A stretch of 33,844 bases of DNA, from assembly GCA_903929135.1 (NCBI GenBank), contig CAIYTH010000047.1, positions 1-33,844 of the forward strand. The letters run 5' to 3'. Shown here piece after piece: positions 762 through 27,999 of this stretch. Below the pieces are notes generated by a model that had not been told where the DNA came from, searched no databases, and was given only the letters and a program-made list of their open reading frames with translations. Source of the DNA: an uncultured Chlorobiales bacterium (lineage in GTDB: Bacteria; Bacteroidota; Chlorobiia; Chlorobiales; Chlorobiaceae). Position 1 is the first letter of the stretch. The number at the start of each line of letters is the position of its first letter. Both the position numbers and the translations under genes were made by a program.

Positions 762-944
762 TAGGGCTAACACTCCAGTACCATATTTGAGGTATTTACA
801 TGGTATGGATGAAGGATTATTCCCTGAAGAACCTTTTTTTACCACCAGTCCACCTGACGATACGAACATGACAGACAAGAACGAACGTCAAGCGCGCTTT
901 TGCCAGGGAGCCATCTGTCGGGTCACCGACGAAACATAAACTGT

Positions 945-1020
945 CCGGCATATGCGTCCGAGGCTTCACAGAGTCTCGCATCCGCCGGTTCCTGTCCTGT
1001 CAGAGAGCCGGTTTTTCTTT
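945..1020 (+). promoter_or_regulatory. candidate attenuator in the leader of the sulfate importer operon
   Basis: Two hairpins share bases and cannot form together. The first pairs CCGGC and ATGCG (945-956) with CGCAT and GCCGG (977-988). The second uses CCGG at 985-988 as its left arm, pairs TC and CTG with CAG and GA inside, closes with CCGG just before 1011, and is followed by TTTTTCTTTT, as in a factor-independent terminator. The start codon of the binding protein is about 40 bp downstream. Overlapping anti-terminator and terminator hairpins are typical of attenuators and riboswitch expression platforms. The sensing part, if any, was not recognised. Confidence 0.45.
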
Positions 1021-1056
1021 TACGAAAACTTTTTGTCAACTGAAATCAATCTCACC

Positions 1057-2079
1057 ATGAAACATTTTGAAATAAAAGCATCCCGCCTGACTGCAGGCAT
1101 CGTCCTCTTCTCGAGCCTGCTCGGCACTGCCGCCCACGCAGCGGCGCCGGCAAACATCACCCTGCTGAACGTCTCGTATGATCCGACCAGGGAGCTCTAC
1201 CAGAGTGAAAACGCCTCATTCGCCAGCTACTGGAAACAGAAAACCGGCCAGACCGTCACGATCAACCAGTCACACGGCGGCTCAGGCAAGCAGGCGCGTG
1301 CCGTCATCGACGGTCTTGAAGCCGACGTCGTCACCCTGGCGCTCGCCTACGACATCGATGCCATCGCCGACACCAAGCTCCTCTCGACCAACTGGCAGCA
1401 GAAGCTTCCGCAGAACAGCACTCCCTACACCTCCACCATCGTCTTCGTCGTTCGCAAAGGCAATCCTAAAGGGATCAAGAACTGGGACGACCTGGTGAAG
1501 CCGGGCATCTCGGTCATCACGCCGAACCCGAAGACCTCGGGAGGGGCACGCTGGAACTACCTGGCCGCATGGGGATACAAGCAGAAGCAGACCAAGTCGG
1601 CGGAGCAGGCCAAGGCCTTCGTCAAGGCGCTCTACAAGAACGTGCCCGTGCTTGACACCGGCGCCCGCGGATCGACCCTCACCTTCAGCCAGCGCGGCCT
1701 CGGCGACGTGCTGATCGCCTGGGAGAACGAAGCGCACCTGATCCTGAAGGAGTTCGGTTCGGACAAGTTCGAGATCGTGGCTCCTCCGGTCAGCATCCTG
1801 GCTGAACCCCCCGTCGCGGTGGTCGACAAGAATGTCGAAAAACACGGCACCAGGAAAGTGGCCGAAGCGTACCTGAACTTCCTGTACACGCCGCAGGCGC
1901 AGGAGATCATCGCCCAGAATTCCTACAGGCCCAGAAGCGCTGCCGCATACAAGAAATATGCCTCGCAGTTCCCTGACATCAAGCTCTTCACGGTGAAGGA
2001 GCTTTTCGGAACCTGGCGCCAAGCGCAGAAGGCGCACTTCAACGACGGCGGCACCTTCGACCAGATCTATACGCCCTGA
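1057..2079 (+). CDS. sbp: periplasmic sulfate-binding protein of the sulfate/thiosulfate importer
   Basis: This 340-residue protein captures sulfate (perhaps thiosulfate) in the periplasm and delivers it to the CysTWA transporter. ATG at 1057 is chosen because it is followed at once by a typical signal peptide: charged start [10 protein letters not shown], hydrophobic core to residue 23, and an AHA/A cleavage site near residue 28. A longer frame upstream would run through the leader hairpins. The mature protein begins with the family motif [12 protein letters not shown] and contains the ligand-binding stretch [13 protein letters not shown]. Length fits the family (about 330-350). It is the first gene of a four-gene plus-strand operon. 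Sbp and CysP are close relatives, so the exact oxyanion preference cannot be read here. Confidence 0.93.
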
Positions 2080-2100
2080 CCGCTTTTCAATCACACTGAA

Positions 2101-2161
2101 CCGCAGAAAATCCTCAGGACCGGAAAACGGGGCAAGCCTCCTCCCCCCGTTTTCCCTGCGG
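2101..2161 (+). promoter_or_regulatory. large intercistronic hairpin between binding protein and permease genes
   Basis: An 11-bp perfect stem (GGAAAACGGGG at 2122-2132 with CCCCGTTTTCC at 2145-2155) sits inside an outer 6-bp stem (CCGCAG at 2101-2106 with CTGCGG at 2156-2161). No T run follows. Such hairpins after a binding-protein gene often stabilise its mRNA or partly stop transcription, giving more binding protein than membrane subunits. Confidence 0.7.
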
Positions 2162-2180
2162 TCTCCATGTACAACTTCAG

Positions 2181-3014
2181 ATGCCGCCTTTCAGCCGTAA
2201 AAAACGACATATCCTGCCCGGATTCGGGCTCTCGATGGGTTACACGGTATTCTACCTGTCAGCCATCGTCATCGTCCCGCTGAGCACCCTCGTGTTCGGC
2301 GCGTTCAGGATGGACCCGCAGGCATTCATCAGTACGGTCACCTCGCCGAGGGTGCTCGCATCCTACCGGCTGAGCCTTTCGACCGCGCTGGTTGCAGCGA
2401 TCTTCAACGCAGTCGCCGGATTCCTCACCGCCTGGACCCTCGTCCGCTACCGGTTTCCGGGAAGGAAGGTGCTCGATGCGCTTGTCGACCTCCCGTTCGC
2501 CCTGCCGACAGCCGTGGCGGGCATCTGCTTCGCCACCCTCTACTCCCCGGTCGGGTGGATCGGTCAGATCCTTGCAAAAGCCGACATCCAGCTCATCAAC
2601 GCTCCATCCGGCATCGTCGTGGCCCTGATCTTCATCGGGTTCCCCTTCGTGGTCCGGACGGTCCAGCCGGTGCTGTCCGAACTCGAACCTGAGATGGAGG
2701 AGTCCGCCCAGAGCCTGGGCGCAAACCGCTGGCAGACGTTCCGCAAAATCCTGCTCCCCCACCTCTTTCCCGCGCTGCTGACGGGAGTGACCCTCGCCTT
2801 TGCACGCGCTATCGGGGAGTACGGTTCAGTCATCTTCATCGCCGGAAACCTGCCGTTCAAGACCGAAATCGCTCCGCTGATGATCATGACCAAACTCGAC
2901 CAGTTCGATTACGACGGCGCCTCGGCTGTGGCTTTCGTGCTGCTCCTGATCTCCTTCACGATGCTGCTCGTCCTCAACGGCATCCAGCGCTGGCAGCAGA
3001 AAGCCTACCAGTAA
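2181..3014 (+). CDS. cysT: sulfate ABC transporter permease CysT (CysU)
   Basis: This 277-residue inner-membrane protein forms half of the sulfate channel with CysW. Several hydrophobic helices are evident, for example around residues 20-42, 65-88, 100-125, 140-160 and 245-265. The ABC-permease coupling loop is the EAA-like segment EESAQSLGANRWQTF followed by RKILLP, which contacts the ATPase CysA. ATG at 2181 has no clear Shine-Dalgarno sequence; an ATG 14 bp upstream is out of frame. The gene lies just after the intercistronic hairpin and 16 bp before cysW. Length and motifs fit CysT; the order CysT then CysW is the usual one. Confidence 0.93.
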   Translation: MPPFSRKKRHILPGFGLSMGYTVFYLSAIVIVPLSTLVFGAFRMDPQAFISTVTSPRVLASYRLSLSTALVAAIFNAVAGFLTAWTLVRYRFPGRKVLDALVDLPFALPTAVAGICFATLYSPVGWIGQILAKADIQLINAPSGIVVALIFIGFPFVVRTVQPVLSELEPEMEESAQSLGANRWQTFRKILLPHLFPALLTGVTLAFARAIGEYGSVIFIAGNLPFKTEIAPLMIMTKLDQFDYDGASAVAFVLLLISFTMLLVLNGIQRWQQKAYQ

Positions 3015-3030
3015 ACCATCTTCAGCAACC

Positions 3031-3885
3031 ATGCAGACGAACCATACCCAGGAAGCACTCATCATCACGAATCCGAACAGGAACGATCATCCTGCGGTGC
3101 AGCTCATCCTCATCCTGCTGACCTTCCTGTTCTTTGCCGGATTCATCTTCCTGCCGCTCGGGCTCGTGTTCGCCCAGGCATTCCAGAAAGGGACCGCACT
3201 CTACCTCGAAGCGATCCGTGATCCCATCGCCATCTCGGCGGTCAAGCTCACCCTGCTGACCGCGGCCATCGTGGTGCCGTTGAACGCCGTGTTCGGTGTC
3301 ACGGCCGCATGGGCAATAACCAAGTTCTCCTTCAGGGGCAAAACCCTGCTCATCAGCCTGCTCGACCTGCCGTTCGCCGTTTCTCCGGTCATCGCGGGAC
3401 TGATCTTCGTTCTCCTTGCCGGAAGCCGGACGTCACTGGGCTCATGGCTCGGGGATCACGGCATCAAGATCATCTTCTCCACACCGGGCATCGTCATCGC
3501 CACCCTTTTCGTCACGTTCCCGTTCATCGCAAGGGAGCTGATCCCTCTCATGGAGTCGCAGGGACGGGAGGAGGAGGAGGCTGCCATAACCCTCGGGGCG
3601 AAAGGATGGCAGACGTTCCGGATCATCACCCTGCCGAACATACGCTGGGGCCTGATGTACGGCATGATCCTCTGCACGGCACGTTCCATCGGGGAATTCG
3701 GCGCCGTCTCCGTCGTGTCGGGACACATCCGCGGCATGACCAACACCATCCCGCTGCACGTGGAAATCCTCTACAGCGAATACAACTACACCGCCTCTTT
3801 CGCCGTCGCGTCGATCCTGGTTTTCCTGGCCCTCGCGACCATCGCCGTGAAGGCCCTGGTGGAAAAAAGAGTCCATAACCAATAA
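3031..3885 (+). CDS. cysW: sulfate ABC transporter permease CysW
   Basis: A 284-residue inner-membrane subunit that pairs with CysT to form the sulfate translocation path. A soluble N-terminal stretch of about 20 residues is followed by hydrophobic helices (about 23-50, 70-92, 105-128, 148-170, 255-278). The coupling loop EEEEAAITLGAKGWQTF and the following RIITLPN match the EAA motif of CysW-type permeases, and ARSIGEFGAVSVVSG is a family block. The gene starts 16 bp after cysT and ends 20 bp before cysA, so it is cotranscribed with them. Confidence 0.93.
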   Translation: MQTNHTQEALIITNPNRNDHPAVQLILILLTFLFFAGFIFLPLGLVFAQAFQKGTALYLEAIRDPIAISAVKLTLLTAAIVVPLNAVFGVTAAWAITKFSFRGKTLLISLLDLPFAVSPVIAGLIFVLLAGSRTSLGSWLGDHGIKIIFSTPGIVIATLFVTFPFIARELIPLMESQGREEEEAAITLGAKGWQTFRIITLPNIRWGLMYGMILCTARSIGEFGAVSVVSGHIRGMTNTIPLHVEILYSEYNYTASFAVASILVFLALATIAVKALVEKRVHNQ

Positions 3886-3905
3886 CTATCCTACCCTGAG
3901 CGTCC

Positions 3906-4979
3906 ATGAGCATCGAGATCAAGAATATCACCAAGCGATTCCCGGGATACACGGCCCTCGACGATATCAGCCTGAGCGTCGGTACGGGAGAACTCATCGC
4001 ACTCCTCGGCCCTTCGGGATGCGGCAAGACGACGCTGCTGCGGATCATCGCGGGTCTGGAAACCGCCGATGCAGGAAGCATCATCCTCGAAGAGAAGGAT
4101 ACGACGAACCTGCCGGCGAGAGAAAAGAACGTGGGTTTCGTGTTCCAGCACTACGCCCTGTTCAGGAGGCTGACCGTGTTCGACAACGTGGCTTTCGGCC
4201 TCAACGTGCAGCCCTCTTCCGTCCGCCCCTCGAAAAGCGAGATCCGCGACCGGGTCGAGCACCTACTCAAGCTGGTACAGATGGACTGGGCGATCAAGCG
4301 CTATCCCTCACAGCTCTCCGGCGGTCAGCGCCAGCGTGTCGCCCTCGCCAGGGCGCTTGCCGTGAACCCGAAGGTGCTGCTGCTCGACGAACCATTCTCG
4401 GCGCTCGACGCCAAGGTGCGCCAGGAGCTTCGGCGCTGGCTCCGGAAACTGCACGACGACATCCATGTCACAAGCATTTTCGTGACACACGACCAGGAGG
4501 AGGCCCTCGAGCTCGCGGACAGGATCGTGGTGATCAACAAGGGAAAAATCGAGCAGCAGGGCTCTCCGCAGGAGGTCTACGACCATCCGGCCAACGCGTT
4601 CGTCTATAATTTCCTGGGGAATGTGAACGTGTTCCACGGACGGGTGCATGACGGCAAGGTGCTGGTCGGGGATCATCTGATCGAAGGCAAGCACGAACTC
4701 GACCTGAATGAGGCCAAAAACGGACAGGCCTTCATCCGCCCCCACGAAATCGGCATCAGCAGAATCCGAAGCGGCGAGAATGACCTTGTCGGCATCATCA
4801 GGGATATCAGGCTCATGGGTGGACAGATCGGCCTGGAGGTCGAAACATCGGGTTTCGACAAGCTCATCGAAGCTGAAATCCCGAGGGAGACCTGGCAGAA
4901 CCTCCAGCTCGTGAAAGGCGACGAGGTGTTCATCACGCTGGACAGGGTGAGAGTGTTCTCGGGTGAGTACGACATCTGA
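3906..4979 (+). CDS. cysA: sulfate ABC transporter ATPase CysA
   Basis: This 357-residue cytoplasmic ATPase powers sulfate import through CysT/CysW. The nucleotide-binding domain fills roughly residues 1-235 and shows Walker A (GPSGCGKTT, near 36-44), the Q-loop (VFQHYALF), the signature LSGGQRQR, Walker B (VLLLDEP) with the D-loop SALD, and the switch histidine in VTHDQ. The C-terminal 120 residues form the TOBE-like regulatory domain, with the family block AFIRPHEI. Length is standard for CysA. It is the last gene of the importer operon and is followed by a strong terminator shared with the convergent cysN operon. Confidence 0.95.
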
Positions 4980-5077: not shown

Positions 5078-6910
5078 TCAGATCTGGTAGTCGTGGATGA
5101 TCTCCTTCGAGATCAGCAGGTGTGCGATCAGGTCGACGGCTTCCGGGAAATCGTCCACGGAATCGAGCTGCAGGTCGGGATTCGTGCGGAAGAAATCGTT
5201 TTTGCCGATGTTCACGACCAGAATCTCGTTCGGCTCGTTCAGGCGCTTGAGGGTCTCGATGTCGTAATCGTCGGCGTCGTCGACGGCCGTGATGAAGATC
5301 TGCCCGGCATCGGTCATGATCCTTGCCAGCTCGCCGATCCTGCGAAGCTTCTCCTCCGCATGGTTCCCGTGCTTGGTGAGGTCCGCCTCGAGGCCGTGTT
5401 CGATGGCCGCCATGCCGAGGTAGTAGGTACTGCACCTGTTCCTGAAGAGCATGCTTTCGAGCTCCCTGCCGAGGGCCCGCTTTCCGGTCCAGGGCCTGCC
5501 GGTGATCACGATGAACTTCGCCCGGTGCCGGTTGACCCTTTCACGGTCCGAAGTCAGCACGTTGCCGGTCTCCCAGTGGCTCTCCCGCTCCCTGATATGT
5601 CGCTCCAGGAGGGTTTCTCCACCGGAGAGGTTCTCGAGCACGATACCGCCGCCGGCGATCTCGTAGTTGTCGACGATGACGAAACGGCCGGTTGCCTCGT
5701 TTTCGGCGGCCAGGTCGAACGCGATCGGCCTGGTGGTTTCAAGGATGCACTCGCCCACATCACGGTTGTCGAGCTGCTGTTTCGTCCGGCTGTAGCGAAG
5801 GTCAGAGGCGTCGAGGGTGCTGACGATCCCGGCGAGCTTCACCGTGGCATGAGCCGTTCCCAGCTTCAGCTTGTACTCCTTTTCAGGCGACATCGGCGTA
5901 CGGCCGACCCAGAAGATGTTTGCCCTGATGCGGGTTCCCACCTGCGGCTGAGGGTCTGTTGGCCTTACCATGAGCTCGCCGGGCCTGATGTAGATCTGGG
6001 TGGAGAGGGTGAATCCCGTCGCCTCGCCTGCGGACGCGGTGCTCCTGGCAGGGGTATTGAACGATTCGACCGACGCGATCACCGAACGCTTGCCCGACGG
6101 GAGGAAAAGAACCTCCTCGCCGACCGAGAGGCTGCCGGTTTCGATCGTCCCGGCCACGATCCTGCGATCGTCGCCGGACTGGGTGAACTTGTAGATGTCC
6201 TGGACCGGGAGCCGGAACGGCTTCTCCTGGAGCTGGCCTCCGCTCGAGAAGAGATCGAGCTGTTCGAGCACCGTCGGGCCCGTGTACCAGGGCATTTCTG
6301 CGGATACCGTGGTGATGTTCTCCCCTTCGCGGGCGCTGACCGGGATGAAGCTGACCGGCTCGACGTCGATCTGCCTGAGGTAGGCCGTATAGTCGGCCTT
6401 CAGCGCCTCGAAGTCCGCCTGGCGGTATCCGGCGAGGTCCATCTTGTTGACCAGTACGGTGACCTGCCTGACGCCGAGCATCGCAACCATGTGTCCGTGA
6501 CGTTTCGAGTTCTCGCGGATGCCTTCGTGGGCGTCGATCACCAGCAGTGCGGCCTCGGCCCTCGATGCTCCGGTGATCATGTTCTTCAGGAACTCGATAT
6601 GGCCGGGGGCGTCGATGATGATGTAGTCCCGGAACGCGGTCTTGAAGAAGCAGCGCGCCGTATCGATGGTGATGCCCTGGGCCTGCTCATCCTTGAGCGC
6701 GTCGAGCAGAAAGGCGTATTCGAAAGGCTTCGAATTCCTCCGGCACGACTCCCGGACCGATTCCAGCTTGCCGTCCGGCAGCGATCCGGTATCGGCGAGG
6801 AGCCTGCCGATGACCGTGCTCTTTCCATGGTCGACATGGCCGACGATCACGATGTTCATCTGCGGCTTCGAGTGTGTCGCGACAGCCCTTTCGATGGTTG
6901 GTGTGGTCAT
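5078..6910 (-). CDS. cysN: sulfate adenylyltransferase large subunit CysN with divergent CysC-like C-terminal domain
   Basis: This 610-residue protein is the GTPase subunit of ATP sulfurylase, which with CysD makes APS from ATP and sulfate. The EF-Tu-like domain shows GHVDHGKST (about 24-32), DAPGHIEF and NKMD; beta-barrel domains follow. From about residue 466 the chain resembles APS kinase (CysC), but its P-loop reads GRPWTGKR, with Arg in place of the usual Ser/Thr. The DGDxVR substrate motif is replaced by [10 protein letters not shown] recall similar altered tails in CysN proteins of other anaerobes, so this looks like a conserved variant and not recent decay. ATG at 6910 is chosen; in-frame ATGs upstream fall in or at the edge of a repeat element. 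The 180-bp gap to cysD holds that repeat. Confidence 0.92.
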
Positions 6911-6950
6911 GCGTTCAGTAACTTCTTGTCGATTGTTGTAACTCAGGTTC

Positions 6951-7094
6951 ATGAAATGGTCAGGCATCGTTCGTGAGCGGTTCGAGTGCAAGGCGGAAGG
7001 AGCGCAGAAACCGGAATGTACTTGAGTACATGAGGATTTCGAGCACCTCCCAACGCAGCAATCGGCGCGCGCAACAGATGTCTGACCATTTCAC
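6951..7094 (-). repeat. 144-bp hairpin repeat element, copy 1
   Basis: The element has an 18-nt terminal inverted repeat with two mismatches (6951-6968 with 7077-7094; arm ATGAAATGGTCAGGCATC). The centre holds a perfect palindrome ATGTACTTGAGTACAT, and the whole length folds back imperfectly. A second copy lies at 28137-28280 with a closely similar core of about 100 bp and exactly the same total length. The right end overlaps the cysD stop codon, so the element sits between cysD and cysN inside the operon. Confidence 0.85.
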
Positions 7095-7969
7095 ATGTAG
7101 CCATCCCGGCGCAGCGTCTCGAGCCCCCCGTCCTCCTTGTCCTGGGCCCGGCCCGAACGTTCGGCGATGCCCGACAGGCTTCCGTTTCGCAGCTCTTCGA
7201 TGATCTCGGCGATCGTCTGCGACGGGGATTCGATCGGGTTGGTGCAGGGCGCGCAGCCAAGCGAGCGGTAGCGGCTGCCGTCGCCCTGGTTCAGATAGAG
7301 GGAGACGATCGGGATGCCCTCCCGTTCGATATACTCCCAGATGTTCAGTTCGGTCCAGTCGAGGAGCGGATGGATGCGGACATGCGTACCGGGGGCGAAA
7401 TCGGTCTTGAACTGGTTCCAGAACTCCGGAGGCTGGTCGCCTACATCCCATGAGTTGCCGCTGTCGCGAGGAGAAAAGTAGCGCTCCTTCGATCGGCTGC
7501 CCTCTTCATCTGCCCGGACACCGACGATAACCCCCGTGTAGGGTTCGTTCCGTTCATCATGCTGGTAGCGCTTGAGCTCATGGTTCATGCGGTAGCGCGG
7601 CCACTCACCCGAAAGGGTCCGCTTCAGCGCCTCGCTCTTCAGGTAGCGGCAGCAGGTGATCCTGTCGGTGTTGCCGTCGGGAAAGGTCTGCCGGTTTTCG
7701 ACAGCTTCCCGGTTCTCGCCGTAGATCATGTTCAGGTTCCACTCGAGCGCGATCCGGTCCCGGTAGGCGATCATCTCGGGGATCTTGAAATGGGTGTCGA
7801 TATGCACCAGCGGAATCGGCACATGCCCGAAAAATGCCTTCCGTGCAAGCCAGAGCAGCACGGTACTGTCCTTGCCGATCGACCAGAGCATGCAGAGGCT
7901 CTTGAATTCGCGGTAGGCTTCCCTTAGAATGTAGACGCTCTGCGCCTCAAGCTGGTCAAGATGATCCAT
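7091..7969 (-). CDS. cysD: sulfate adenylyltransferase small subunit CysD
   Basis: CysD is the catalytic subunit of the heterodimeric ATP sulfurylase and transfers AMP from ATP to sulfate; CysN drives the reaction with GTP. The 292-residue protein has the PP-loop motif [17 protein letters not shown] near residues 30-46 and family blocks such as [27 protein letters not shown] and [12 protein letters not shown]. Length is near the usual 300. The start at 7969 has a good ribosome binding site (AGGGA, 4-5 bp spacing) and lies 18 bp after the cysH stop. The stop codon coincides with the end of a hairpin repeat. Confidence 0.96.
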
Positions 7970-7987: not shown

Positions 7988-8704
7988 TTACTGTTCCTGG
8001 TGTCGATGGAGACCGCATTCTCGGTGTTCGGCCTGTTCCCACCACCAGCGTCCTGCACGCACATCCTCGCCTGGTTCGACGGCCCTGGTGCAGGGAGCGC
8101 AGCCGATGCTGGGATAGCTGCGGTCATGGAGGCGGTTGTAGGGAACGCCGTGCGCCCTGACGTACTCCCAGACCTCGGCTTCACTCGCGTCGACGAGCGG
8201 ACTGATCTTGAAAAGCCCGAAACTCTCATCCCATTCGACGACGCCGATCCCCACGCGGGTGACCGACTGCTCCCGCCGAAGCCCGCATATCCATGCATCC
8301 AGCTTCGAAAGCTTGCGCTTCAGCGGCTCGATCTTCCTGACACGGCAGCACTCCTTGCGCTTGTCGATGCTTTCGTAAAACAGGTTCGGCCCATGCTGCG
8401 ACACCATCCTCTCGACCGACGAGGCCTCCGGAAACAGCACCTCGATCCGCACCCCGTATCGACGCCTCGTCTCGTCCAGCAGGTCGTAGGTCTCCTGCGG
8501 CAGGCGGCCGGTATCGAGGGTGAACAGCGGCAGATCGAGCCCTTGCCGATGCAGCAGATCGGTGATGAGCTGGTCCTCCACCCCGAGACTGGTCGAAAAG
8601 GCGATGCCTTCGATGCCGAAGGTCTCCGCGGCAAGGCGGAGCACCTCTTCCGGTGATATGCCGCTCCACTGGCGGTTCAGTTCCTCTGCCCGTTCCCTGC
8701 TCAT
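7988..8704 (-). CDS. cysH: adenylylsulfate (APS) reductase, iron-sulfur type
   Basis: A 238-residue assimilatory reductase that converts APS to sulfite and AMP with thiol electrons. The PAPS-reductase fold is shown by STSLGVEDQ (about 37-45) and FTLDTGRLPQET. Two cysteine pairs, CC at 119-120 and CAPC at 202-205, are the ligands of the [4Fe-4S] cluster found in enzymes that use APS, and not in PAPS-specific CysH of E. coli. The catalytic cysteine is C230 in ECGLH near the C terminus. The start overlaps the TusA-like gene stop (ATGA), and cysD follows after 18 bp. Use of APS removes the need for an APS kinase, which fits the altered kinase domain on CysN. Confidence 0.94.
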   Translation of the reverse strand: MSRERAEELNRQWSGISPEEVLRLAAETFGIEGIAFSTSLGVEDQLITDLLHRQGLDLPLFTLDTGRLPQETYDLLDETRRRYGVRIEVLFPEASSVERMVSQHGPNLFYESIDKRKECCRVRKIEPLKRKLSKLDAWICGLRREQSVTRVGIGVVEWDESFGLFKISPLVDASEAEVWEYVRAHGVPYNRLHDRSYPSIGCAPCTRAVEPGEDVRAGRWWWEQAEHRECGLHRHQEQ

Positions 8705-8973
8705 GGCCTCACCTTCTGCTGTTGGATCGTCGGCCTGTTCCTTCCCACGATGATGCCGACCGCGTCGTCATGCTGACGGCTCTTCAGTATCCGGTGGCCG
8801 GCATCGTTGATTGACTGCACCACCCGGATGAGCGATTCACCGGCATCCACGAGCACCTCGATCAGCTCTTCGTCGCCGAGCTCCGAGATGGCCTGCTTGA
8901 CCCTGACGGCGTTGACGGGGCAGGAAACCCCCCGCACGTCAAGGCTTCTGGCTGTGTTGTACTGCTTTTTCAA
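8701..8973 (-). CDS. TusA-like sulfur carrier protein, TTG start
   Basis: A 90-residue member of the TusA/SirA family of small sulfur carriers. The conserved motif DVRGVSCPVN places the sulfur-binding cysteine at residue 18. The start is taken as TTG at 8973, because GGGAGGA lies 5-7 bp upstream and the product then begins MKKQYNTARSLDVRG, as in the family; the only in-frame ATGs lie far upstream inside the sulfite reductase gene. It overlaps the 3' end of the sulfite reductase by 35 bp and overlaps cysH by 4 bp, so the three are translationally coupled. A role in handling sulfur produced by the reductase is likely but inferred from context. The C-terminal 15 residues are longer than in typical TusA. 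Confidence 0.88.
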   Translation of the reverse strand: MKKQYNTARSLDVRGVSCPVNAVRVKQAISELGDEELIEVLVDAGESLIRVVQSINDAGHRILKSRQHDDAVGIIVGRNRPTIQQQKVRP

Positions 8974-9844
8974 ATATCTCCTCCCTGATGTTTTCAAGTC
9001 CGATACGATCGATCGTATGGCCGAACCGTTCCTTTTTCTTCCCATGCTCACGGTAGCAGGAGACTGCCGCATCGACGAGGGCGTAAACCTCCTCCTCGGT
9101 CTCCACGATCCTCTTCAGCACGGAGGCGAATCGCGGTTTCCTTCCCATGGTGCCACCGATGAAGACCGTGTACCCCTTCCTGCCGACGACCCATGCCGAG
9201 GAGGGGCAGAGCGACGAGCAGACGGTGCAGTTGACGCAGGCATCCTCATCCGCTTCATAACTGACGGCTTCGTCGGTATCCTTGCGGGCGATGGCGCCGA
9301 CAGGACAGAAGCTGACGCAGAGGCCGCAGTCGGTGCAGGAATCCTCAAGCCACAAAGGCTCGATAGCCCCCCTGATGCCGATGTCGTTCTCGTTCGCCTT
9401 GGTGCAGTTGCTCGAGCATCCGGTAACCGCGAACTTGAACTTGGAGGGCATCTCCTGCTTGAAATAGCGGGCATCGAGTTCGCGGGCCATCTCCTTGGTG
9501 TCGATCACGCCCCAGCGGCAGGTCTCGCCTCCCGGACAGGCCACGATGCTTCGGACGCGCGGTCCACAGGCCCCCATCTCGACACCGGCCTCTGCAAGCA
9601 GCTCCTTTGCCTTCCCGAGGTTGTCCCGGTGGACGTAATGGATCTCCACACCCTGTCGCGTGGAGAGATGCACGAACCCGCGCCCGTACTGTTCGGCGAC
9701 TTCGGCGATGCGGGCAAGCTGGCGGACCGTGAGGTCCCCTGCGACCGCCTTGAGGCGCATGACATAATAATCGGGCTGGTTCTGGAGCATCATGCCCACC
9801 TTTCCAAGCGCCGCGTGATCGAGTTCGCTGTACGACATCTTCAT
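8939..9844 (-). CDS. ferredoxin-fused siroheme sulfite reductase (anaerobic assimilatory type)
   Basis: A 301-residue enzyme predicted to reduce sulfite to sulfide. The siroheme-[4Fe-4S] ligands are C103/C109 (CPGGETC) and C143/C147 (CSSNC), the Cx5C and Cx3C pattern of nitrite/sulfite reductases. After this come two ferredoxin-like clusters: CTDCGLCVSFCP (170-181) and CVNCTVCSSLCP (203-214). An N-terminal ferrodoxin-like reductase domain with VMRLKAVAGDLTVRQL precedes them. This compact layout is the ferredoxin-fused type and is unlike CysIJ. Start ATG at 9844 is preferred; a longer open frame upstream runs straight through a tRNA-like gene. It heads the minus-strand operon and overlaps the TusA-like gene. 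Confidence 0.9.
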   Translation of the reverse strand: MKMSYSELDHAALGKVGMMLQNQPDYYVMRLKAVAGDLTVRQLARIAEVAEQYGRGFVHLSTRQGVEIHYVHRDNLGKAKELLAEAGVEMGACGPRVRSIVACPGGETCRWGVIDTKEMARELDARYFKQEMPSKFKFAVTGCSSNCTKANENDIGIRGAIEPLWLEDSCTDCGLCVSFCPVGAIARKDTDEAVSYEADEDACVNCTVCSSLCPSSAWVVGRKGYTVFIGGTMGRKPRFASVLKRIVETEEEVYALVDAAVSCYREHGKKKERFGHTIDRIGLENIREEIFEKAVQHSQKP

Positions 9845-9907: not shown

Positions 9908-9985
9908 TGGCGGCGACGGCAAGATTCGAACTTGCGATAACGATGGTTTTGCAGACCCCGGTTTTAGCCTCTCACCCACGTCGCC
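9908..9985 (-). tRNA. unusual tRNA-Cys (anticodon GCA) in front of the sulfite reductase
   Basis: The minus strand reads a near-complete tRNA with encoded CCA. It has a 7-bp acceptor stem (GGCGACG with CGTCGCC), a T arm of GCAAG, loop TTCGAAT, CTTGC, a D arm GGT/ACC with GG in the loop, and an anticodon loop CTGCAAA giving GCA for cysteine. The core departs from normal: there is no free base between D and anticodon stems (position 26), the anticodon stem GGGGT/ACCAT has one G-A mismatch and one G-T pair, and the variable loop is 7 nt instead of 4-5. It ends 63 bp upstream of the sulfite reductase start in the same direction, so cotranscription is likely. Confidence 0.7.
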
Positions 9986-10056: not shown

Positions 10057-10075
10057 AAAAAAGCCCGTAACGGAC
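10057..10075 (-). terminator. terminator-like hairpin upstream of the tRNA-Cys-like gene
   Basis: On the minus strand GTCCG, loop TTA, CGGGC forms a short stem followed by six T. No minus-strand gene lies upstream to be terminated, so it may act as an attenuator in the leader of the tRNA and sulfite reductase operon. The sequence GCGTCCG at its left arm is also complementary to CGGACGC about 50 nt downstream. Confidence 0.35.
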
Positions 10076-10243
10076 GCATCTGCAACTTAATACCATGAAA
10101 ATACCATAAATGCGGTACCCTTTCCTGGGCGACCGGTCGGGGAACAAAACGAGGTACAATGCGGCCTGGTGAGGGCTTTCCCGCCTCCTGCAGGAAAAAG
10201 TGCCCGAGGGGTCGACAATAGTTTGGAAATGATCCGGCCGGAT

Positions 10244-20344: not shown

Positions 20345-21706
20345 TTAAATATCGAACAGCAGTCTTGACGGATCCTCGATGGCCTCCTTCATGGCGACAA
20401 GGCCGAGCACGGCTTCCCTGCCGTCGATGATGCGATGGTCGTACGAAAGCGCGAAATAGTTCATGGGACGGATGACGATCTGCCCGTTCTCCACCACCGG
20501 CCGATCCTTTGTGGCGTGGATACCGAGGATGGCGGACTGGGGAGGATTGATGATGGGCGTCGAAAGCATGGAGCCGAAGGTGCCGCCGTTTGAAATGGAG
20601 AAGGTGCCGCCGGTGAGCTCCTCGAGGGAGAGTTTGCCCGCCTTGGCCTTCTCGCCGTAGGCGACGATCTGCTTTTCGATATCGGCGAAACTCATCTGGT
20701 CGATGTTACGCAGCACCGGGACGACCAGGCCGCGGGGAGAACCGACGGCGATGCCGATGTCGAAATAACCGTGGTAGATGATGTCGGTGCCGTCGACCGA
20801 AGAGTTCAGCACCGGATATTTCCTGAGAGCGTGCACGGCCGCCTTGACGAAGAAGGACATGAAACCGAGTTTCACGCCGTGCTCTTTCTCGAATTTGTCC
20901 TTGTACCGGTTACGCAGGTCGATGACGGCCTGCATGTTGACCTCGTTGAAGGTCGTCAGGATGGCGTTGCTCTGCTGCGACTGCAGGAGGCGCTCGGCGA
21001 TGCGGGCGCGAAGACGGGACATGGGCACCCGCTCTTCCGGACGGTTGTCGATCAGCGAGGTGTCCATGACGGCTTCGACGGGCTGCAGGGCCGGACGGGC
21101 CGAAAATTCGGGCGCCATCGGCGTCCAGGAGGGCGATGTGGCGACCGGGAGCGGTGCGGCGGCAGCGGCGGCAGGAACCGCTGCAGGCGAATGCGTCGTG
21201 CCTCCGGAAAGCGACGAAATGACGTCACCTTTGGTCACTCGACCTCCGCGACCGGTGCCGGTAATCGATGCGGCGACCAGGTTGTGCTCCTCGATCAGCT
21301 TGGCGGCCGAAGGCATGGGGGCCGTGTTCCCGCCGGAAGCGAGCGGATAGGCCGGCTGCGGCTGCAGGCGCGGTGCGGGTGGCGGTGCAACCGGAGCCGG
21401 GGCCGGAGCGGGCGCCGGAGCTGGGACCGGAGCCGTGACTGCTGGTGCGGCTACGGAAGCTGCAGCTTCGGTATCGATGGTGGCCACGGCCTGGCCCGAT
21501 ACGACGATGTCGCCATCGCTGGCCGTTATGGCTGCAAGCACACCCGAAGCGGGCGCTGGAACTTCGAAAACGACCTTGTCGGTCTCGATTTCGAAAAGGG
21601 TTTCATCCTGAACAACAGCGTCGTCGGTTTTTTTTCTCCAGCCGAGCATGGTTGCCTCGGCAACTGATTCGGACAACGGGGGTATTGTTACTTCGACAAT
21701 TGCCAT
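20345..21706 (-). CDS. sucB: dihydrolipoamide succinyltransferase (E2 of 2-oxoglutarate dehydrogenase)
   Basis: A 453-residue E2 core protein that moves succinyl groups to CoA. The lipoyl domain (1-78) carries the lipoyl lysine K44 in [10 protein letters not shown] flexible Ala-Pro hinge follows (about 90-120), then a peripheral subunit-binding domain ([23 protein letters not shown]), a second Ala/Pro linker and the catalytic domain with active-site histidine in [11 protein letters not shown]. Start ATG at 21706 has AAGGA at good spacing; an open frame upstream overlaps sucA. It starts 28 bp after sucA and precedes lpd by 16 bp. Confidence 0.95.
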
Positions 21707-27592: not shown

Positions 27593-27599
27593 CCTAAAG

Positions 27600-27999
27600 T
27601 GGAGATGGCGGGAGTCGAACCCGCGTCCAGAACACTGATCGATGCAGTCACCACACTCATCCCCGGTGGTTGTTTTTTCGAAGACCGTTTACATCGCCGG
27701 CAACGTTCGGTCCCTTATCCCTCACATGTATTCATACGCCCCAGTGGGCCTGAACGTATGAATCTTACTTGCGCGAACCGAAGCTCAAGCGCGGGTTATG
27801 CCATCCAGCGCCTTCAGAGTAAGCGCATTCAACGCTGGACGATGGCGTCTGTGTTAACTTTTGTTAATCAGGCAGCCATTGCATACGAATGATCGTCTGC
27901 ATGTATTGTTTACATAGACTTCTTTAACGAGTCCATCCATGCTGAAACTCGGAGTGCAACGACATCTCTCACCTATCCTGTCGAAAGCCTGTCATCCCC
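27600..27999 (-). ncRNA. ssrA: transfer-messenger RNA (tmRNA)
   Basis: The 400-nt minus-strand RNA rescues stalled ribosomes. Its 5' end GGGGATG pairs with CATCTCC at the 3' end to form the tRNA-like acceptor stem; the T arm GCGGG, TTCGACT, CCCGC lies just before. The mRNA-like part encodes ADDHSYAMAA followed by TGA and an overlapping TAA (tag codons around 27870-27905). I recall the C. tepidum tag as ADDYSYAMAA, so this points to Chlorobi. The three bases after the discriminator A are CTT, so the CCA end is not encoded and must be added. Open frames through this region are not genes. Confidence 0.95.

Follow-up and report, generated by a model that had tools for sequence, protein, structure and literature searches.

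The tRNA Gene and Its Surroundings

The window, that is, the whole 33,844-nt stretch of chlorobial DNA analyzed here, carries on its minus strand a minor tRNA-Cys(GCA) gene (9908..9985) that is followed, 63 nt downstream on the same strand, by the gene of a 301-aa sulfite reductase with an inserted ferredoxin domain (Fd-SiR; 8939..9844; NIR_SIR, NIR_SIR_ferr, and Fer4). The minus strand continues with a TusA-like sulfurtransferase whose start codon is provisional (8701..8937), the adenylylsulfate/PAPS reductase CysH (7988..8704), a CysD-like sulfate adenylyltransferase subunit (7091..7969), and a CysN/CysC-like protein with GTP_EFTU and APS kinase domains (5078..6991). A sulfate-type ABC transporter, consisting of a binding protein, two permeases, and an ATPase with a CysA C-terminal domain, is encoded on the plus strand (952..4979). 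According to excerpts of PMC8125076, Chlorobium ferrooxidans gets its sulfur through assimilatory sulfate reduction. Elsewhere in the window there are a tmRNA gene at 27597–27999 (-) with the tag ADDHSYAMAA (ARAGORN and Rfam) and a tandem repeat at 21391–21435 (12-bp unit, 3.8 copies). Only the tmRNA and the tRNA reach an Rfam gathering score, and no T-box is found in the window.

The tRNA gene is real. ARAGORN calls tRNA-Cys(GCA) at 9985–9908 (-), and the Rfam tRNA family RF00005 matches the same interval with 44.6 bits against a gathering cut-off of 29. The acceptor stem (GGCGACG/CGTCGCC) and the T arm pair perfectly, and the gene encodes CCA. The core is aberrant: the D stem abuts the anticodon stem without an intervening base, the anticodon stem is topped by a G-U and a G-A, and the variable loop measures 7 nt. 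The absence of base 26 can alternatively be read as base 26 being present and followed by a 4-bp anticodon stem. Apart from that alternative, these features, including the GCA anticodon and the position ahead of the sulfite reductase gene, had been claimed in a preliminary description of this DNA and are confirmed here. That description lacked the main oddity, which is that the discriminator base is G73 and not U73. Folding energy alone lends the gene no support and is uninformative: 52 of 200 shuffled sequences fold equally well and the predicted fold is not the full cloverleaf, and the same program gives no cloverleaf for canonical tRNA-Cys either.

The source genome also contains a canonical tRNA-Cys gene (L028) with U73 and 61.3 bits, which rules out the window tRNA as the sole tRNA-Cys of the genome. 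The preliminary description had proposed a minor tRNA-Cys-like gene beside a normal one, as opposed to a single, normally scoring tRNA-Cys gene, and this proposal is borne out. Among the canonical tRNA-Cys genes with loci returned by our search, U73 is found in 30 of 30. One genome (G004) seemingly lacks a canonical gene, probably due to an assembly gap given that the flank search stops at a contig start.

Conservation among Chlorobiaceae

We searched 61 related genomes, the source genome included, with the tRNA and its short flanks and obtained matches in 22; the match in G059 is to a canonical tRNA and that in G005 covers a 23-nt piece, so that neither represents the whole gene. Thus, a near full-length relative of the window tRNA is present in 20 of the 37 genomes of the family (Chlorobiaceae). 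In 15 of these 37 genomes, representing 15 species, the relative has G73; we refer to these genes, the window tRNA among them, as type A. Their pairwise identity is 86–100% (mean 0.91), compared with means of 0.40 over the 60 nt upstream and 0.35 over the 60 nt downstream, and identity of this order next to diverged flanks is more than chance. The three type A genes that were scored with Rfam reach 44.6, 49.6, and 51.5 bits, versus 61.3 and 62.5 for canonical tRNA-Cys.

The acceptor 5' strand, D stem, anticodon loop (CTGCAAA), T arm, G73, and C74 are constant in the 15 aligned type A genes, the sole deviation being one changed acceptor base in one genome. All 15 lack base 26 and have a variable loop of 6–8 nt. 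Variation is concentrated in bases 27–28/42–43 and in the variable loop, both of which are hypervariable, and anticodon-stem mismatches occur in 4 of the 15. CCA is encoded in just two type A genes, with C74 kept; this is not odd, since only 23 of 74 distinct tRNA genes in four Chlorobi genomes (G000, G004, G016, and G034) encode CCA while C74 is present in nearly all. The unconstrained changes across stems that mark a pseudogene are absent from the 15 genes, and most copies are not decayed.

The remaining relatives, type B, combine U73 with base 26 and an ordinary variable loop, and are found in seven genomes of the sister genus. Two genomes (G021 and G034) possess a type A, a type B, and a canonical gene.

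Association with Sulfur Genes

Type A genes are consistently placed with genes of sulfur metabolism. Ten of the 15 lie in the leader of the Fd-SiR operon, and three (G021, G025, and G034) lie ~50–60 nt before an O-acetylhomoserine sulfhydrylase gene. The remaining two (G002 and G016) lie behind a promoter-like block of the sulfite reductase type, beside a cystathionine synthase/lyase gene, in genomes in which no Fd-SiR was found. Near relatives of the sulfhydrylase (at least 73% identity) are encoded in 27 of the 37 family genomes, and the tRNA is directly ahead of them in three. The order DUF4395 gene, G73 tRNA, O-acetylhomoserine sulfhydrylase, on one strand and without a palindrome of the kind described below, is seen at loci L037, L038, and L045. 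Type B genes are far from the reductase in two of the seven type B genomes, at ~9 kb (G035) and ~29 kb (G034). Across the 37 genomes, 17 have both Fd-SiR and a type A or B tRNA, 3 have the reductase only, 3 the tRNA only, and 14 neither (Fisher p 5.6e-5, hand-counted and uncorrected for relatedness).

The tRNAs of the two genomes without Fd-SiR match at all 77 nt, whereas about one-tenth of the positions differ, as read by eye, in the stretch between palindrome and tRNA. By eye, a terminator-like hairpin directly follows the tRNA in G016. Retention of the tRNA in this pair is weak evidence of an independent function because the loss of the reductase there may be recent.

To cover reductase loci more widely, an alignment of 12 reductases was used to collect 78 Fd-SiR loci in named genomes, 50 from Chlorobi and 28 from other phyla, with a few genomes contributing two loci. 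ARAGORN finds a same-strand tRNA-Cys upstream of the reductase in 28 of the 50 Chlorobi loci: 11 of type A, 14 of type B, and 3 that we call B2, which are U73 copies within the leader (L169–L171). The distance from tRNA to reductase is 39–70 nt for type A, 52–99 nt for B2, and 249–3738 nt for type B. One type B gene (L155) is cut by a contig end. No tRNA-Cys was found by ARAGORN upstream of the 28 reductases of other phyla, and Rfam detects a single, unrelated tRNA-Phe there. Local alignment over up to 1500 nt upstream of these 28 loci, some of which have little upstream DNA (82 nt in L179), gave scores of 16–35, none of which exceeded the top score of ten shuffles by more than 6, and one (L185, 30 vs. 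24) was exactly at that margin. An association of tRNA-Cys and Fd-SiR outside the Chlorobi was therefore rejected for these 28 loci. Fd-SiR also occurs in Methanoregulaceae, in Methanospirillum, and in another archaeon of the Methanomicrobiales (L186, L191, and L196), with no tRNA beside the reductase.

Some Chlorobi loci retain pieces of the tRNA. Clear remnants are found at L136, where the acceptor stem is kept and the anticodon arm is lost (4883–4922), and at L154, where only the 3' half is left. Four loci of one clade (L130, L133, L135, and L138) have, ~100 nt or less before the reductase, 16–17 nt from the 5' half that include the D-arm motif; this piece, which was recognized by eye and has one mismatch in L133, is a probable remnant even though its alignment scores are close to the shuffle scores (34/35, 30/30, 34/32, and 38/32, respectively, the last for another stretch). 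At L130 the two ends still pair over 7 bp with different letters, possibly by chance. A further remnant (L149) is doubtful. Within the sequence available, no tRNA is detected upstream of the reductase in 10 of the 50 Chlorobi loci, one of which (L160) is assigned to G035, the genome with its type B gene 9 kb away; four additional loci (L158, L163, L189, and L203) have too little upstream sequence. The ten loci without a detectable tRNA, together with up to seven that have a remnant, indicate that the tRNA is dispensable to the operon. As L154 keeps only the 3' half, we considered that the tRNA might serve as the attachment site of a mobile element. Carriage by viruses was likewise considered and rejected, as viral contigs gave no exact match to a type A/B pattern.

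A quick tree was built from 52 reductases, comprising 47 Chlorobi loci, the window, and four outgroups (the fragments L189, L202, and L203 were omitted). The 11 type A rows and the remnant L136 form one group with an SH-aLRT support of 97. When all seven labels, including outgroup and unknown, are mapped on the tree there are 16 changes versus 32.5 in shuffles, and the five tRNA states alone require 12 changes.

A Promoter-Like Block Upstream of the tRNA

Upstream of the window tRNA lies a conserved block (10057..10117 (-), ends approximate) composed of a palindrome, a GGTA repeat, TTGNA, and a T-rich box, and on account of its conservation the block is taken as the putative promoter region of the tRNA and the sulfite reductase. 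Its palindrome is an operator-like site, TACCGCATTTATGGTA (10102..10117 (-)). In the source genome (2.14 Mb, 91.7% complete), this is the sole exact match to TACCRYRTTTRYGGTA, and there are two matches with one mismatch. One of these, at 779..794 (+), lies upstream of the sulfate transporter genes and is followed by similar spaced motifs; the other is at G000:C50:92918-92933 (locus L287). An operator-like palindrome with spaced companions thus precedes both units, which makes it likely that the sulfate transporter and the sulfite reductase units have a common regulator. A sigma-70 consensus scan of the leader in the window returned no promoter. A terminator-like match at 10075–10063 (two found, 0.9 expected) falls inside the conserved block and is not taken as an attenuator.

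When up to two mismatches are allowed, 45 of the 50 Chlorobi loci have the palindrome no more than 420 nt from the reductase, in most cases accompanied by additional spaced motifs, and none of the 28 loci outside the Chlorobi has it. The palindrome also precedes both tRNAs that lack a reductase (G016 and G002). It stands closely ahead of the tRNA in 9 of 11 type A loci (L150 has none and L156 only a distant one) and in all three B2 loci. In type B, the site nearest the reductase comes after the tRNA in 13 of 14 loci and is missing in L142, so that 13 of the 14 type B genes would be outside the reductase mRNA. Two type B loci (L167 and L168) have another, weaker palindrome match lying under 200 nt ahead of the tRNA, and some type B genes may thus own a site. 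Eight type B loci (L153, L157, L159, L161, L164, L166, L167, and L199) have a second palindrome match, with 1–2 mismatches and mostly TACCATATTAACGGTA-like, at a similar distance of ~1.7–2.4 kb before the reductase. No palindrome occurs in the 2.9–3.1 kb examined around the three sulfhydrylase-linked type A genes, and a shared promoter therefore fails for 3 of the 15 type A genes.

The earlier suggestion that the window tRNA is made with sulfate assimilation is supported as probable, since a promoter-like block common with the sulfate transporter lies upstream of the tRNA. In the window and in most type A genomes, the tRNA should accordingly be the first product of the sulfate assimilation unit.

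Identity Elements and Synthetases

The bacterial cysteine determinants are U73, G2-C71, C3-G70, the GCA anticodon, and a core tertiary interaction; U73 is the main identity base for cysteinyl-tRNA synthetase (CysRS) and suffices for the cysteine identity of minihelices (PMC9976931, in part). Type A genes keep GCA and G2-C71 in 15 of 15 and C3-G70 in 14 of 15 (C3-A70 in G025). They all have G73 and hence do not qualify as bacterial tRNA-Cys by U73. The loss of the main cysteine determinant to G73 makes efficient cysteine loading of type A doubtful. In the core, G15 is accompanied by C48 in 14 of 15 genes and by T48 in one, and the G15-G48 of the Escherichia coli kind is absent. C48 does not separate type A from canonical tRNA-Cys because canonical Chlorobi tRNA-Cys also has C48.

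The bacterial serine determinants are G73, C72, G2-C71, R4-Y69, C11-G24, a large variable region, and G30-C40 (PMC9976931, in part). Five of these seven (G73, C72, G2-C71, R4-Y69, and G30-C40) are present in type A, and C11-G24, replaced by G11-C24, and the large variable region are missing. Canonical tRNA-Cys has every serine determinant except G73 and the large variable region, and shares C72, G2-C71, R4-Y69, and G30-C40 with type A. Relative to canonical tRNA-Cys, therefore, type A gains G73 alone.

CysRS (PF01406) has exactly one strong match in 35 of the 37 family genomes. The exceptions are G012, with two matches, a listed contamination of 9%, and no type A, and G018, an incomplete genome with type A that has none over the cut-off. 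Fourteen of the 15 type A genomes thus have exactly one CysRS, and a second CysRS serving the G73 tRNA was not found in these 14 genomes with a match over the cut-off. No residue tracks the presence of type A cleanly among 36 CysRS sequences; the best column, position 203, has an uncorrected p of 4e-4 among several hundred columns. An indirect cysteine route through SepRS (TIGR00470) and SepCysS (TIGR02539) was rejected given that neither enzyme exceeds its cut-off in a set of 37 genomes (23 Chlorobiaceae, including 13 of the 15 type A genomes), where any matches are weak and far below it.

Proposed Origin and Role of the Minor tRNA

We favor, with moderate confidence, the hypothesis that type A is a trans-acting minor tRNA(GCA) that is matured, made together with sulfate assimilation, and charged weakly or in an altered way. 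The conservation of the gene, its G73, the promoter-like block upstream, the single CysRS in 14 of 15 genomes, and the existence of U73 relatives are observed, and we infer its descent, transcription, processing, and decoding as follows. Type A would have arisen from an unremarkable tRNA-Cys with U73 in the vicinity of this operon when one lineage fixed G73, the loss of base 26, and a longer variable loop. The tRNA would be the first product of the sulfate assimilation operon, it would be excised from the leader like any normal tRNA by RNase P, RNase Z, and the CCA enzyme, and it would read cysteine codons when sulfide must come from sulfate. Given G73, the absence of base 26, and the longer variable loop, the single CysRS is expected to use it poorly. 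Between slow or condition-dependent loading with cysteine and loading with a different amino acid, we consider the former somewhat more likely. The presence of relatives with U73 beside or close to this operon suggests that tRNA-Cys and sulfite reductase became linked before, or independently of, the G73 change.

The recurrent placement in the leader could also mean that the tRNA-like element acts in cis on the reductase mRNA, whether as a sensor of cysteine charging, as proposed in the preliminary description, by binding CysRS, or through mRNA maturation by RNase P. The tRNA lies 39–70 nt before the gene in all 11 type A reductase loci of the contig scan, at ~50–60 nt before another sulfur gene in three genomes, and at 52–99 nt in the three U73 copies within the leader, and the four related loci with a 5'-half piece retain it, by eye, in the leader with its D-arm motif. 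Nevertheless, we regard a cis role as unlikely, and as less likely than a trans role even though the leader placement recurs. The sequence adjoining the tRNA is unconserved, the window has no T-box, no tRNA is seen at 10 of the 50 Chlorobi loci, the tRNA persists behind the block in two genomes that lack the reductase, and 13 of 14 type B genes are upstream of the block proximal to the reductase, with no block found for the remaining one. Furthermore, a sensor that uses CysRS should retain U73. The earlier proposal of a charging sensor is unsupported on the first four of these grounds. A trans-acting tRNA fits better than a leader element because the parts needed for folding, maturation, and the reading of UGY are fixed along with G73, whereas the flanks and the variable loop are free to vary.

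Alternatively, G73 might pass type A to another synthetase, serine being the obvious candidate, such that cysteine codons would receive a sulfur-free residue under sulfur limitation. The five of seven serine determinants in type A (PMC9976931, in part), the invariant anticodon loop, and the probable expression with sulfate assimilation are all in keeping with such missense decoding. We nevertheless judge it improbable, as the large variable arm is absent (6–8 nt), G11-C24 takes the place of C11-G24, G73 is the only gain relative to canonical tRNA-Cys, and the benefit is putative. There is likewise a small chance that the gene is a neutral or decaying copy that hitchhikes with the operon. Its anticodon-stem mismatches in 4 of 15 genes, the hypervariable bases 27–28/42–43 and variable loop, and the clear, probable, and doubtful remnants would all agree with decay, but free decay would spread changes evenly, as in the flanks, and a single base is all that varies among the 15 species in the acceptor, D stem, anticodon loop, T arm, and G73. 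Random decay among relatives, which the preliminary description had set against its own reading, does occur in a minority of loci (two clear, four probable, and one doubtful remnant of 50) and does not extend to most copies.

A bolder and tentative hypothesis, to which we attach a low probability, is that type A may be a dedicated tRNA for cysteine codons that is switched on with sulfate assimilation and that G73 has uncoupled from cysteine loading, so that it either carries another amino acid or serves, when undercharged, as a signal of cysteine supply. If another amino acid were loaded, cysteine codons would be translated partly without sulfur when sulfur is scarce. The combination of a cysteine anticodon loop and cysteine acceptor pairs with the wrong discriminator, in genomes with one CysRS, constitutes a natural test of how strictly U73 is required, for which the natural U73 relatives at the same operon are ready controls. 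The recurrent siting with genes that make or use sulfide suggests a tRNA pool tuned to the sulfur source.

Comparison with Known Systems

We found no published account of the Chlorobi type A tRNA in the open-licence literature, outside of which most subscription papers lie, and the excerpts of PMC5424206 and PMC8125076 contain nothing on it. A report of minor tRNA-Cys species near ferredoxin-fused sulfite reductases, mentioned in the preliminary description, could not be traced. The nearest system in print, selC* tRNA-Cys, is different, and the excerpts of PMC7609411 do not mention sulfite, ferredoxin, or Chlorobi. According to these excerpts, selC* tRNA-Cys has U73, an 8/4 acceptor branch, a bulged A51a, and a long variable arm (PMC7609411), and its partners in some lineages are selB*/cysS*, with selB* downstream (Mukai et al. 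2017, cited in PMC7609411). Type A resembles it, so far as these excerpts describe it, in being an additional, structurally odd tRNA-Cys of anaerobes. We reject type A as a selC* tRNA-Cys because of its 7/5 branch, absence of a bulge, G73, variable loop of 6–8 nt, and lack of a second CysRS in the 14 type A genomes with a match over the cut-off.

G73 itself has a precedent in the tRNA-Cys of some Methanospirillum and Methanoregula, where it is accompanied by changes in CysRS (Perona et al. 2018; PMC8762117, in part). Those tRNAs, as described there, are archaeal and have a possible SepRS split in addition to the CysRS changes, whereas here no SepRS was found in the 37 genomes searched and there is one CysRS for the U73 and G73 tRNAs. 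G73 is shared with tRNA-Ser and allo-tRNA as well, from which type A differs in having neither a large variable arm nor an 8/4 or 9/3 acceptor branch. Canonical bacterial tRNA-Cys and type A are alike in GCA, G2-C71, C3-G70 (14 of 15), the 7/5 acceptor-T branch, and the standard tRNA invariants, and unlike in the G73, missing base 26, 6–8-nt variable loop, and sulfur-gene placement of type A. Finally, in tyrU-tufB and metY-nusA of E. coli, tRNA genes lead protein operons. There, as would be the case for type A, a tRNA is the first product of a protein-coding transcript; in those operons normal tRNAs are joined with translation genes, whereas here an odd tRNA-Cys is joined with sulfur assimilation.
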